DNA from: a virus
IMG/VR virus record: IMGVR_UViG_3300021963_000722
Location: 1-22,213 of that record
Length of the DNA: 22,213 bases
Strand: one strand, 5' to 3'
Made by a program: the position numbers and the translations under genes. Shown here piece by piece: positions 1 through 17,800 of the stretch (the first letter of the stretch is position 1; every line of letters starts with the position of its first letter). The notes beneath the pieces are model-generated. The model ran no database searches. It worked only from the letters and a program-made list of their open reading frames with translations, and was not told the DNA's origin.

Positions 1-61
1 TTTCCTTTCTATAAGGATTATCTCTTTGTAAACAAAGAGAGATAATCATTATGAAAGGGAA
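1..61. repeat. Hairpin 1 (about 26 bp stem)
   Basis: The inner arm 21-28 pairs with 33-40 around a 4-base loop. After a 2-base bulge the stem continues through 16-20 with 43-47, 11-14 with 49-52, and 1-9 with 53-61 (one G-T wobble). The outer arm starts at base 1, so the true structure may extend left of the window. Confidence 0.85.
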
Positions 62-85
62 TAGAGGTTCTCGGCCAATTCTCCC

Positions 86-115
86 TTATCTCTACTCTAT
101 AGAGAGTAGAGATAA
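86..115. repeat. Hairpin 2 (13 bp perfect stem)
   Basis: Arms 86-98 and 103-115 are perfectly complementary around the loop ATAG (99-102). Confidence 0.9.
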
Positions 116-120
116 CAAAC

Positions 121-182
121 TATCTTCTTAATCTAGACTAACTAATGCCAAAGGCACTTAGTTAGTAACTAGATAGAAGATA
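121..182. repeat. Hairpin 3 (about 27 bp stem, bulged)
   Basis: TGCC (146-149) pairs with GGCA (153-156) around an AAA loop. The stem continues with 137-145 on 158-166 (C157 bulged), 131-136 on 169-174, and 121-128 on 175-182, with two-base bulges between segments. Confidence 0.85.
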
Positions 183-188
183 GAAAAG

Positions 189-210
189 TATACAACCAAT
201 AGGTTGTATA
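189..210. repeat. Hairpin 4 (9 bp perfect stem)
   Basis: Arms 189-197 and 202-210 pair perfectly around the loop AATA. Confidence 0.85.
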
Positions 211-217
211 AGAGTAC

Positions 218-249
218 AATACTAGATAATCAAAGATTATCCTAGTATT
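218..249. repeat. Hairpin 5 (14 bp stem, one bulge)
   Basis: 226-231 pairs with 235-240 around an AAA loop, C241 is bulged, and 218-225 pairs with 242-249. Confidence 0.88.
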
Positions 250-261
250 TGGCTTATTTAC

Positions 262-299
262 ATAGATTAGTAGTAGTAATACATTACTACCTAATCTAT
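262..299. repeat. Hairpin 6 (16 bp stem, one bulge)
   Basis: 262-270 pairs with 291-299, and 273-279 pairs with 284-290 around the loop TACA. Bases 271-272 are bulged. Confidence 0.85.
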
Positions 300-319
300 A
301 TTCTTTACACCAATAAACT

Positions 320-340
320 TATACTAACATAGTTAGTATA
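320..340. repeat. Hairpin 7 (9 bp perfect stem)
   Basis: Arms 320-328 and 332-340 pair perfectly around the triloop ATA. Confidence 0.85.
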
Positions 341-342
341 CT

Positions 343-367
343 TATACTACTACTATGTAGTAGTATA
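343..367. repeat. Hairpin 8 (11 bp perfect stem)
   Basis: Arms 343-353 and 357-367 pair perfectly around the triloop TAT. It starts two bases after hairpin 7. Confidence 0.85.
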
Positions 368-373
368 TATATA

Positions 374-417
374 TATAATATACTATAGTGTAACTTTGTT
401 ACTTATAGTATATTATA
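374..417. repeat. Hairpin 9 (about 19 bp stem)
   Basis: 390-394 pairs with 398-402 around the loop TTT. A small asymmetric internal loop (388-389 against 403) follows, then 374-387 pairs with 404-417. Confidence 0.85.
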
Positions 418-433
418 AGGCTGATTATAATAC

Positions 434-456
434 ATATAATACCAAGGGTATTATAT
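434..456. repeat. Hairpin 10 (10 bp perfect stem)
   Basis: Arms 434-443 and 447-456 pair perfectly around the triloop AAG. This is the last stem before the repeat-bearing spacer. Confidence 0.85.
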
Positions 457-469
457 AATATATTCTACA

Positions 470-494
470 TCGTCGTAAAATCTCGTCGTAAAAT
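470..494. repeat. 12-base direct repeat, two copies
   Basis: TCGTCGTAAAAT occurs at 470-481 and again at 483-494, one base apart. A partial third copy (TGTAAAATAT) lies at 522-531, and GGCTCCT occurs at 512-518 and 541-547. Spaced direct repeats in a phage regulatory gap may be operator or iteron sites; that is inference, and no binding protein is identified here. Confidence 0.6.
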
Positions 495-547
495 ATCACA
501 TCATTCTAGTAGGCTCCTCCTTGTAAAATATGACAAACTCGGCTCCT

Positions 548-573
548 GCGTATGCGTATATGCACATGCATAC
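548..573. other. 26-base alternating purine-pyrimidine tract
   Basis: Every base from 548 to 573 alternates purine and pyrimidine (GCGTATGCG... to ...GCATAC). Its ends (550-555 and 568-573) also form a 6 bp inverted repeat. Such tracts can adopt left-handed Z-DNA under negative supercoiling. It sits just before the point where strand composition flips. Confidence 0.6.
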
Positions 574-769
574 CCCCGTTCACACACCCCACATCATATA
601 TAATTATACTGTTTATATTTTTTGTACAAAATGAGTTTGGCTTAGTTTGGTGTTATATTATTAAGATATTGTTAAGATTACGGTTTTGATGTCCGATTTG
701 TGTGTTTTGATGTGTTATTATTAGTAGAGGGTGTTTTTTTTTATTCTATTTTGCTTGAGGGGTGATTTT
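574..769 (+). other. Composition switch and leader of the rightward genes
   Basis: Bases 574-594 are almost only C, A and T. From about 605 the + strand becomes G/T-rich and stays so through the structural genes. The leader up to the first start codon at 770 carries no recognisable gene. TATAAT is present at 599-604, and its complement-strand counterpart lies at 603-608, but neither has a convincing -35 box at standard spacing. Late promoters are presumably here, but I cannot point to one. Confidence 0.4.
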
Positions 770-1492
770 GTGGCTAATGCTTTTACTGATAAGTTGGATG
801 CGATTGTTGCGGATGCTGCGGTTGCTTCTGCGGCGGTTGGTACTATTGTTTCTGGTTCGGATGCGGTTGTTGATAATTTTGCGGGTTTGAAGGATTTGGT
901 TGATGAGTTGTCGGCTTTTGCTTCTTTGATGAAGAGTAATACTTTTTATGCTCCTGTTGGTGGTATTATTCCTTTTGCTGGTACTACTGCTCCGGGTGGT
1001 TGGTTGTTGTGTGATGGTACGGGCTATGCTACTACGGGGACTTATGCTGATTTGTTTGGGGTTATTGGTACTGCGTATGGTTCGTCTGGTGGTTTTCAGG
1101 TGCCTGATTTGCGTGGTCGTGTTATTGCTGGTATTGATAATATGGGTGGTACTGATGCTGGTCGTTTGAGTTTGTCTAATACGATGGGTACGGCTGGTGG
1201 CGCTGAGACTCTTCCGGCGCATACGCATCCTTGGTCTACTACTGGTGGTACGCATGCGCATAATTATTCTAGGCCTTATTTTGGTGGGGTTGATAATACC
1301 TATGTTGGTGGCGCTGGTACTAATGCGTATGTTACTAGTGCGTCTGGTGGATGGTCTTATGGTGGTTGGGTTACTTCTAATGTTGGTGGTGATGGTTCTC
1401 ATTCGCATAGTGGTACTACGGATCCTACTGGTACTGGTACACATGGTGTGGTTCAGCCAACTATGGTACTTAATTATATTATTAAGTGGTGA
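770..1492 (+). CDS. Tail collar-domain protein (short tail fibre-like)
   Basis: A 240-residue virion protein with a phage tail collar domain, the fold of T4 short fibre gp12 and microcystin-dependent proteins. The collar signature GGIIPFAGTTAPGGWLLCDG is at about residues 63-82, followed by a YADLFGVIGTAYG segment. The C-terminus has three His-X-His clusters (HTHPW, HAHN, HSHSG) and ends in VVQPTMVLNYIIKW. In gp12 comparable His-X-His motifs coordinate metal in the trimer core, so a metal-stabilised trimeric receptor-binding tip is likely. I use the GTG at 770 because GAGGGG lies a few bases upstream; an in-frame ATG at 731 would add 13 hydrophobic residues and has no Shine-Dalgarno sequence. 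Codons end almost only in G or T. It is the first gene of the rightward cluster and is followed closely by another fibre gene. Confidence 0.88.
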   Translation: MANAFTDKLDAIVADAAVASAAVGTIVSGSDAVVDNFAGLKDLVDELSAFASLMKSNTFYAPVGGIIPFAGTTAPGGWLLCDGTGYATTGTYADLFGVIGTAYGSSGGFQVPDLRGRVIAGIDNMGGTDAGRLSLSNTMGTAGGAETLPAHTHPWSTTGGTHAHNYSRPYFGGVDNTYVGGAGTNAYVTSASGGWSYGGWVTSNVGGDGSHSHSGTTDPTGTGTHGVVQPTMVLNYIIKW

Positions 1493-13913: not shown

Positions 13914-13920
13914 GAGGGGG
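13914..13920 (+). promoter_or_regulatory. Shine-Dalgarno GAGGGGG of the collagen-like fibre gene
   Basis: It ends five bases before GTG 13926. The earlier GTG at 13920 would overlap this site, so the later start is chosen. Confidence 0.65.
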
Positions 13921-13925
13921 TGCGT

Positions 13926-16139
13926 GTGGCTGATTTAAAGGCTTATACTAGTATTTATAGTTTTCCGTATCCTCTTGATGGGGACGACATTAGTAATGCT
14001 CCAATTAGGATTAAGGAGTTGGCTGATCGTATTGTAGTTGTTCTTGAAACTCTTGGTTTGTCTGGCTTTTCGTATTCTATTCTAACTACTAATTCTACTT
14101 TTAGTGGTGATGTTATTGGTGCTTATAATGCTTTGACTATTAAGTCTAGTGTTAATCTTACTGGTAGTCCTACGACTACTACGCCTAGTACTGGTGATAA
14201 TACTACTCGTATTCCTACGACTGGTTGGGTTCGTAGCGAGTTTATTGGTAATCTTCCTACTGGTCCTACTGGTCCGCTTGGGCCTACGGGTCCTACTGGT
14301 CCTCAGGGTATTACTGGTCCTCAGGGTATTACTGGTGCTGCTAGTACCGTAACGGGACCTCAAGGTCCTACTGGTCCACAAGGTGTTACAGGACCTACGG
14401 GAGCGACTGGACCGGCAGGAACTACTAATGCACATGATGCTTGTAATTTTGTTACTATTGCTGTGCTTGCTAATTCGCCTACTTATACTGCTGGTACTCT
14501 TGGTGCTGATGGTGGTTATGGTGTTGGCGCTTATTTAGAGGCTGGTACTAATAGTGCGCTTAGCGTTGATGGTGTAACACCTAGTTTTGGTGATCGTATC
14601 CTTGTTAAGAATCAGGCTACGGCTACTCAGAATGGTATTTATACTGTTAGTGTTGTTGGTGATGCTGGTTCTAAGTGGAAACTTATTCGTGCTACTGATT
14701 ATGATAATCATGTTGCTGATCAGGTTGATGCTGGTGATTTTACGATTATTCAGGGTGGTGATACGCAGGCTGGTTCTACGTTTATGATGAATTCGGCTGG
14801 TAGTATTGTTATTGGTGTTAATAGTATTAGTTGGACTATTGTTGGTGGTGTTGGTCCTACGGGTCCTCAGGGTCCGGCTGGTCCTACTGGTGCTGCGTCT
14901 ACTGTGACGGGTCCAACGGGTGCTATTGGTGCTACGGGTCCGACTGGTGCTCAGGGTATTCAAGGTCCTACTGGTCCGACCGGTGCGGATAGTACTGTTA
15001 CTGGTCCTACAGGTGCGCAGGGTGTAACGGGTCCTACGGGGCCTACAGGGCCTACGGGTGCTGCAAGTATGGTTACTGGTCCTACGGGTCCAACGGGTGC
15101 TACGGGGCCTGCTAGTACTGTTACAGGGCCTACTGGACCTCAGGGTCCGACTGGTAGTGCTGGTGCTAATGGTGCTAATGGTATTGCTGGTGCGACTGGC
15201 GCAACTGGTCCTACCGGTCCTACTGGCCCTACTGGTGCGGCTGGTTATATTGGCGCGGATGGTGCTACTGGACCCACTGGTCCTACTGGTTCATATATTA
15301 TTAGTGATACTGCTCCTAGTGCTACGGGCGCGGGTACTACTTGGTTTGATTCTACTACGGCTAAGACGTATATTCGTTATAATGATGGTTCTAGTTCTCA
15401 GTGGGTTGAGGAGGGTAATCCTACGAGTATTGTTGTGCCGGGGCATGGTTCTAGTCATGTGCGTGGTGGTAGTGATGTTATTGATGGTGATCGTTTGACT
15501 GTTGATTATGTTCCTACTGCTTATACTCGTAATGCGGCTGCTAGTGGTGCAGGCGATGCTACTGATTTAACGGCGCATCTTAGTGGTGTAAATACCGCGC
15601 TTGCTCCCGCATTTGTCACTAGTCTGCCTAGTACTCCCTATGATGGGCAAATTATTTATTATCAGGCTAGTGCTGCAGATGGCGTTATTTGGCAATTTCG
15701 TTATAATGCTAGTAGTTCTTCTTCTTATAAATGGGAATTTATTGGCGGAGGAGAGTTAGTTGCTACTGCTGGTTCTCGTAATTATAATACTCGTCAAACG
15801 TATAGTTCTCTTTTTTACGGTGATTTAAGTACTGCTGGTCCAAGTATTACGGCCCCTTTAGCGGGAGATTATTTATGTACTTTTAAGGCGCTTTGTCAGT
15901 CAAATACTACCTCTGGAAATGTCCGTGTTTTTGTAACTGGAGATTCAACTAGTATTGCTTGGAGTGATGACGTTGATGGACAGGCATACACTGGTAATTC
16001 GACAATAGGTGGTATTGTTAAACGAAGTGGTGTTTTATCGGGAAACACTATTAAATTACAGTACGCTGTTTCTAATGCCGGTGTAAATGCAGAGTTTTGG
16101 AGTAGGCAATTAAGCATTACTCCTATTCGTGTTGGTTAA
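13926..16139 (+). CDS. Collagen-like tail fibre protein
   Basis: A 737-residue fibre. Order (own numbering): an N-terminal attachment part (1-110); a first Gly-X-Y collagen stretch (about 113-165); a globular domain (about 170-308) with [19 protein letters not shown] and [12 protein letters not shown], a pattern common in phage fibres; and a longer Gly-X-Y stretch (about 310-455). This stretch is interrupted three times by Ala-Ser/Asp-Ser variants of ASTVTG. Then come a neck module with [15 protein letters not shown] (about 509-535) and a C-terminal beta head. Collagen triplets in phage fibres form trimeric rods. The neck is shared with the next fibre gene. From about base 15550 codons change from nearly all G/T-ending to mixed, so the C-terminal head appears to have a different origin. 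GTG 13926 is chosen from the GAGGGGG spacing. Confidence 0.85.
14262..14420 (+). repeat. Collagen-like Gly-X-Y repeat, first segment
   Basis: DNA encodes repeated Gly-Pro-Thr and Gly-Pro-Gln triplets with one interruption (Ala-Ala-Ser-Thr-Val-Thr). Near-identical GGTCCTACT-type units could recombine or be misassembled. Confidence 0.85.
14853..15290 (+). repeat. Collagen-like Gly-X-Y repeat, second segment
   Basis: About 145 residues of Gly-X-Y triplets, mostly Gly-Pro-Thr, Gly-Ala-Thr and Gly-Pro-Gln. They are interrupted several times by ASTVTG or a close variant, which would kink or register the triple helix at intervals. Confidence 0.85.
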
Positions 16140-17383: not shown

Positions 17384-17800
17384 ATGACTGTATGTAATAA
17401 ATGCAATACAGAAAAACCCTCTAAAGATTATCGTAAACACTCACGTATTTGTAAATCTTGTGAGTATGATAAGAATAAAGAATGGGTAAGTAATAATAAG
17501 GATCAGCGTAAGAAACAACAATCAAAGGCTAATCGGCGCGCTTATTATAAGCATTGTAATAATTATGAAGAGTATGAAAATATTTGGGATGATGTTACGC
17601 ATTGTCAGTGTTGCGGTAAAGAATTTGATACTAGTGTTAAGCGTTTGACTAAGTGTATGGATCATGTGGACGCTGGTCCTAATTCTTATGTTCGTGGTAT
17701 TATTTGTGGGAATTGTAATATTGGTATTGGGTGTCTTGGGGATACTTTTGAGGGTGTTTTTAATGCTATTAATTATTTGGATAGGGAGGTGTTCTTATGA
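17384..17800 (+). CDS. Endonuclease VII-like HNH nuclease
   Basis: A 138-residue protein with the recombination endonuclease VII (beta-beta-alpha metal) signature. CxxC pairs at Cys74/Cys77 and Cys108/Cys111 can bind structural zinc, and the active-site pattern is CMDHVD (Asp93-His94) followed by VRGIICGNCNIGIG (Asn112) and a family-like end (GDTFEGVFNAINYL). A second, N-terminal cysteine set (Cys4, Cys7, Cys23, Cys26) resembles an added zinc finger. T4 Endo VII resolves branched DNA, while short free-standing members among structural genes often behave as homing nucleases. Here the gene lies between two fibre genes, which favours a mobile or recombination-promoting role. The 5' half is A-rich in codon use and the 3' half is G/T-ending. 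AAGGAGG (17373-17379) precedes ATG 17384, and the end overlaps the next start (ATGA). Confidence 0.82.
   Translation: MTVCNKCNTEKPSKDYRKHSRICKSCEYDKNKEWVSNNKDQRKKQQSKANRRAYYKHCNNYEEYENIWDDVTHCQCCGKEFDTSVKRLTKCMDHVDAGPNSYVRGIICGNCNIGIGCLGDTFEGVFNAINYLDREVFL

Follow-up and report, generated by a model that had tools for sequence, protein, structure and literature searches.

In the Lactococcus Ceduovirus phages c2, bIL67 and 923, origins of replication have been proven by plasmid tests, and they lie between the cluster of early genes and that of late genes (PMC7150918). They encode no protein, and fast-changing sequence types do the same job; what defines them is a pair of early promoters together with a non-coding transcript, and hairpins are absent from their description (PMC7150918). 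In phage N4, a giant virion RNA polymerase reads short promoter hairpins, in which bases of both stem and loop are conserved. These hairpins have 3-nt loops with C:G closure, certain stem bases are free provided that the hairpin forms, and the C-G closing pair is needed for extrusion under supercoiling (PMC4496689). The array of hairpins described here is, like the Ceduovirus origins, non-coding, placed between early and late gene clusters and fast-changing in sequence, whereas it is a row of hairpins that characterizes it. Its loops, counted across the family, are mostly of 3 nt (102) or 4 nt (56), and the triloops are closed by C-G in 83 of the 102 cases against 3 with G-C, as in N4. However, 9-15 hairpins stand in a row, both arms and loops vary, and no giant virion polymerase was seen in the records searched. 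GOLLD, ROOL and OLE are large structured non-coding RNAs with a compact multi-branched core. The array resembles them in its length of several hundred bases, its strong fold and its covariation, but it is a row of short hairpins with almost no wobble pairs and no Rfam match.

The DNA analysed (the window, 22,213 bp) is the whole of the linear, metagenomic IMG/VR record IMGVR_UViG_3300021963_000722. It is a tailed-phage fragment with a P22-type portal, a terminase large subunit, a major capsid protein, tail fibres and a glycosyltransferase. A tail protein carrying collagen-like G-P-T repeats is found at 13920-16139, and a small ORF between tail-fibre genes (17384-17800) has paired CxxC motifs and an HNH-endonuclease-like look. 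The left end of the record cuts the array internally, and the gene to the left, absent from the record, was deduced from relatives. The best annotated relatives of the capsid protein belong to Arthrobacter and Microbacterium phages, at ~30% identity. A prophage and host search with TerL in genome contigs gave no match, so that the host, read from these capsid relatives only, is likely actinobacterial. The array phages most likely form a family of uncultured actinophage-like podoviruses.

The initial annotation reported ten hairpins over about 360 of the first 456 bases in a gene-free region. Indeed, ten stem-loops, here given without strand, span ~357 of these bases, and no convincing gene was found within the array. 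H1 (2-61) is a long imperfect hairpin; in relatives, ~10 nt separate its left end and the start codon of a leftward early Zn-ribbon gene. H2 (86-115) has a perfect 13-bp stem and a 4-nt loop. H3 (120-183) is a composite hairpin with bulges in the 3' arm and an apical TGnC-AAA-GnCA motif; the motif occurs in 20 of 28 arrays, and the bulges are, by inspection, retained. H4 (189-210) again has a perfect stem, of 9 bp, with a 4-nt loop. H5 (219-248) stands just behind a GTACAAT linker, and its arms consist of unrelated letters in one relative (L008), while H6 (262-299) follows a TTTGGCTTA linker (248-256). H7 (320-340) consists of a 9-bp stem and an ATA loop, which is TAT in several relatives, and H8 (343-367) of an 11-bp stem and a 3-nt loop. 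The 14-bp outer stem of H9 (374-417) encloses an inner 5-bp hairpin, and H10 (434-456), just behind a GGCTGA linker, has a 10-bp stem and a 3-nt loop. H1, H3, H6 and H9 are longer than first described, with internal loops or bulges. The short linkers are conserved, the hairpins of an array mostly differ from one another in sequence and fill a gap of about half a kilobase, and their number per array ranges in the family from ~9 to ~15 (the latter counted by eye in L101).

The folding potential of this region is far above that of shuffled controls. A strict hairpin finder returned 9 hairpins (198 bp) in the first 470 bases of the window, against a mean of 0.97 (21 bp) and a maximum of 5 (97 bp) in 1000 dinucleotide shuffles. 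As RNA, the + strand of the array folds at -173.3 kcal/mol against -86.9 in shuffles (z -15), and the - strand reaches z -16.3; DNA parameters give z -14.1, and no shuffle matched any of the three. The fold thus came through the comparison with shuffles, proposed earlier, on both strands. An intrinsic terminator stack, already doubted at that time, is ruled out, since T tracts are lacking and window 1-780 gave one loose terminator match only, on the - strand. Searches of Rfam at gathering and relaxed thresholds returned sub-threshold chance matches only, mostly to microRNA families, and no tRNA or tmRNA was found. The similarity to integron attC sites is limited to a chance-looking GTTAGAC match, and the idea of primase sites (CTA) was dropped, as CTA/TAG is not among the most over-represented trinucleotides. 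INPHARED gave no match to the array DNA or to the adjacent Zn-ribbon protein, and no described element of such form was found in the open papers searched. The earlier statement that no named phage element looks like this therefore holds for Rfam, for INPHARED by DNA and for these papers.

The structured region extends beyond position 456 to ~580 and takes in several GTAAAAT motifs as well as an imperfect palindrome. Three iteron-like copies of GTAAAAT lie on the + strand at 469-535, likewise in L040. They are followed at 547-580 (strand unassigned) by the imperfect palindrome, an alternating purine-pyrimidine run, and then by the conserved CCCCCGTT. The run at 547-573 is 27 nt of perfect alternation, of the Z-DNA type; many relatives have such a run, which measures 22-28 nt in several of them. 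A Z-DNA tract was rejected because a plain hairpin occupies the site in L100, L101, L103 and L105, and we therefore read the run as a degenerate eleventh hairpin. A conserved AT-rich block (595-647, strand unassigned), containing TATATTTTTTGTAC and the second copy of TTTGGCTTA, which is otherwise found in the linker before H6, is a putative divergent promoter region. The direct repeat TATTAAG/TGTTAAG with an 11-bp period (659-676, + strand) lies ahead of the late genes, is retained in many relatives, and may be a late activator site. Where the contigs of relatives are long enough, the order is the same: the Zn-ribbon gene on the - strand, ~10 nt, the array, the GTAAAAT repeats, the last palindrome with CCCCCGTT, the AT-rich block, the TGTTAAG repeat and the late genes on the + strand. 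Sigma-70-type promoter scans of the array region gave no excess over shuffles, with a consensus that may not be that of the host.

Relatives of TerL and of the neighbouring Zn-ribbon gene provided 28 non-redundant arrays, that of the window included, in independent contigs, which excludes an assembly artefact. (A structure model of the Zn-ribbon protein was of low confidence, pLDDT 67, and was left out of the analysis.) Each array phage has the array at one site per genome, and the array is present down to 72% TerL identity (L055). A phage with a TerL 88% identical (L057) has no comparable array, and in the cultured relatives Jasmine and Shocker no 500-bp stretch contains more than 1 and 2 of these hairpins, respectively; the array thus seems to go with the early/control module and not with the terminase. 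No such array was found in the remoter TerL relatives L061-L085, which are mostly GC-rich and include many incomplete records.

An alignment of 11 arrays has 96.8% of its cells paired. Changes on both sides with pairing kept were found at 48 of 132 pairs, in 124 cells, against 23.5 and 40.3 in shuffles, and the covariation score is 0.264 against 0.113 in shuffles, neither being equalled in 500 shuffles; with the structure slid, the score falls to 0.03-0.07. These compensatory changes strongly support the suggestion of the initial annotation that the fold is kept rather than the sequence. Covarying pairs are the mark of structured RNAs, and they are equally expected of DNA hairpins. Pair counts on the RNAalifold structure lean to G-U on the + strand by construction and were excluded from the strand question. 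The arm changes are concerted, in that blocks of both arms are swapped without wobble intermediates, and the ~1,555 pairs of 160 unique hairpins contain only one G.T and six A.C as isolated mismatches. Identical arms with exactly reverse-complement loops, such as GACTAC arms with TTC or GAA, occur 10 times against 5.0 expected (125 of 5000 permutations gave as many), a test that serves as a guide only, since the arrays share ancestry. Concerted arm changes and reverse-complement loops are marks described for template switching (PMC8794818). As template switching can explain the strict pairing, the pairing shows that the hairpins persist and cannot alone separate a function as DNA from one as RNA.

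The place of the array is best seen in G001, a circularly complete genome of 44.5 kb with a 127-bp terminal repeat. The array forms its main divergent junction, from which the late arm runs one way and the early arm the other, and the two converge near 1.5 kb. Three further records, G001 among them, have the array at the junction of early/late divergence. The late arm of G001 encodes TerL, portal, capsid and tail proteins; the early arm encodes the Zn-ribbon protein, an ArdC-like protein, Rad52, family A polymerase, a Toprim/AAA primase-helicase, an SSB-like frame, sigma-70 region 2 and ribonucleotide reductase. Two ORFs, divided near the TGRMSS / NVQNIP motif, make up the family A DNA polymerase (L138 16348-18793, equal to G001 36348-38793), with a glycosyltransferase-like ORF between them, and two separated matches also occur in G002, G003 and G005; an intron, an intein or a split gene is possible. 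In L139, a small early protein (2432-2764) matches sigma-70 region 2 (Pfam E 4e-6) and is a possible phage sigma factor. The array is thus real, conserved in shape and located at the early/late junction, a place which suggests a control or replication-start region. In G001, G003 and G004, the cumulative GC skew reaches its minimum at most ~0.3 kb from the array, which favours an origin there, although skew is confounded with gene direction. In a distant relative, the environmental podovirus MW202795.1 (L146), whose capsid protein is 31% identical, two exact and three near DnaA boxes are clustered in ~260 bp (34184-34440) near the early/late junction, a place comparable to that of the array. 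This cluster looks, as far as its boxes tell, like a DnaA-type origin. In contrast, the array phages have no DnaA-box cluster: with 0-1 mismatch allowed, no box was found in window 1-760, and there is no excess in the window or in L138.

We favour, with a probability of roughly 0.4, the reading that the array acts at the level of DNA as an origin/control region and that negative supercoiling drives the extrusion of its hairpins. The composition of the hairpins bears on this. Stem pairs are C(5')-G(3') in 352 cases against 89 G-C, whereas in RNA stems G-C has been reported to be in excess (PMC8794818). TpA is found 1350 times against 817 expected, and AA/TT is depleted. The isolated mismatches lean weakly to RNA of the - strand (A.C on the + strand equals G.U on the - strand), both kinds being very rare. 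Overall, action as DNA comes slightly ahead of action as RNA, and transcription probably covers the array at least in part, as H1 adjoins the early start codon.

This last point leads to a structured 5' leader RNA of the early operon, transcribed from near 595-647 leftward through the array, which could protect early mRNA from nucleases, tune Zn-ribbon translation or be processed into small RNAs. It is a tentative reading that deserves serious weight. In relatives, ~10 nt separate the end of the array from the early start codon, a ribosome-binding-site-like sequence lies beside or within an arm of H1, and the strong fold of the - strand, the lean of the mismatches (6 to 1) and the conserved bulges and apical motif of H3 all agree with it. 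However, hardly any wobble pairs occur on either strand despite the divergence of the stems, the C-G asymmetry of the stems runs opposite to that reported for RNA, and the reverse-complement loops on identical arms oppose strand-specific recognition of loops. Rfam has no match, and sigma-70-like promoters are not in excess, though those of the host may differ. A role in transcription control or insulation, in which the array absorbs negative supercoils between divergent promoters or exposes a promoter by extrusion as in N4, is rather unlikely. It would suit the position between divergent modules, the DNA-hairpin-like loops and the late-promoter-like repeats beside the array, and N4 provides a precedent of supercoil-extruded phage hairpins (PMC4496689). 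Insulation alone, however, does not obviously call for ten or more hairpins with conserved linkers. Moreover, G001 has no ORF of virion-polymerase size (the largest, of 1889 aa, has no Pfam match), and an RNA_pol search of five records, run without a positive control, gave no match.

Two further explanations carry little weight. Palindromes may be made and perfected by template switching in an unconstrained gap, as a by-product without function, and the concerted multi-base arm changes and the reverse-complement loops would fit this (PMC8794818). Nevertheless, the restriction to a single site per genome, the retention to 72% TerL identity, the conserved H3 bulges and linkers, and a C-G loop closure far from random make it very improbable. 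Still more improbable is a packaging (pac/cos) or site-specific recombination site: the terminase gene lies within ~2 kb of the array in the window, but there is no conserved core resembling a cut site, the arms vary freely, and L057 lacks the array in spite of its similar TerL. Among the roles listed in the initial annotation, a replication site has the best fit in location, while no evidence was found for packaging or for recombination.

In the favoured origin/control reading, divergent transcription together with the gyrase of the host would leave the stretch negatively supercoiled. The palindromes, rich in TpA and with short loops closed by C-G, would be extruded as cruciforms or, alternatively, fold as single-strand hairpins once the duplex opens. 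The hairpins would hold ~0.5 kb as an unwound platform beside the iteron-like repeats of GTAAAAT and the AT-rich block at 595-647, at which replication proteins could load. If only the fold matters, the arms would drift, and template switching during replication would keep them matched. Judged from sequence, the covariation, the near absence of wobble on either strand, the triloop closure, the stem asymmetry and the TpA excess are consistent with such an origin, as are the divergent-junction location, the skew minimum and the replication genes of the early arm. By analogy, the iteron-like repeats, the DnaA boxes of MW202795 and the place of the Ceduovirus origins may point the same way. On the other hand, transcription alone would yield a skew reversal at a divergence point, template switching could produce strict Watson-Crick pairing whatever the function (PMC8794818), and the array is probably transcribed in part at H1. 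The kept bulges of H3 suggest a folded single strand over a plain double-stranded palindrome, and both the absence of the array from L057 and that of a DnaA-box cluster from the array phages speak against an origin. The bolder proposal of a new phage-origin architecture, in which 9-15 supercoil-extruded hairpins of free sequence are used for shape only and perfected by template switching where a related phage has DnaA boxes, is doubtful for the present.

The phages with the array have no close isolate among the records searched. If the hairpins act as DNA, they would be a phage control element kept for its shape, with sequence almost free. They would offer dozens of natural hairpins for the study of cruciform extrusion and template switching, and origins of uncultured phages could then be found by fold instead of sequence. 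If they act as RNA, the array would represent an undescribed class of leader RNA heading the early operon.
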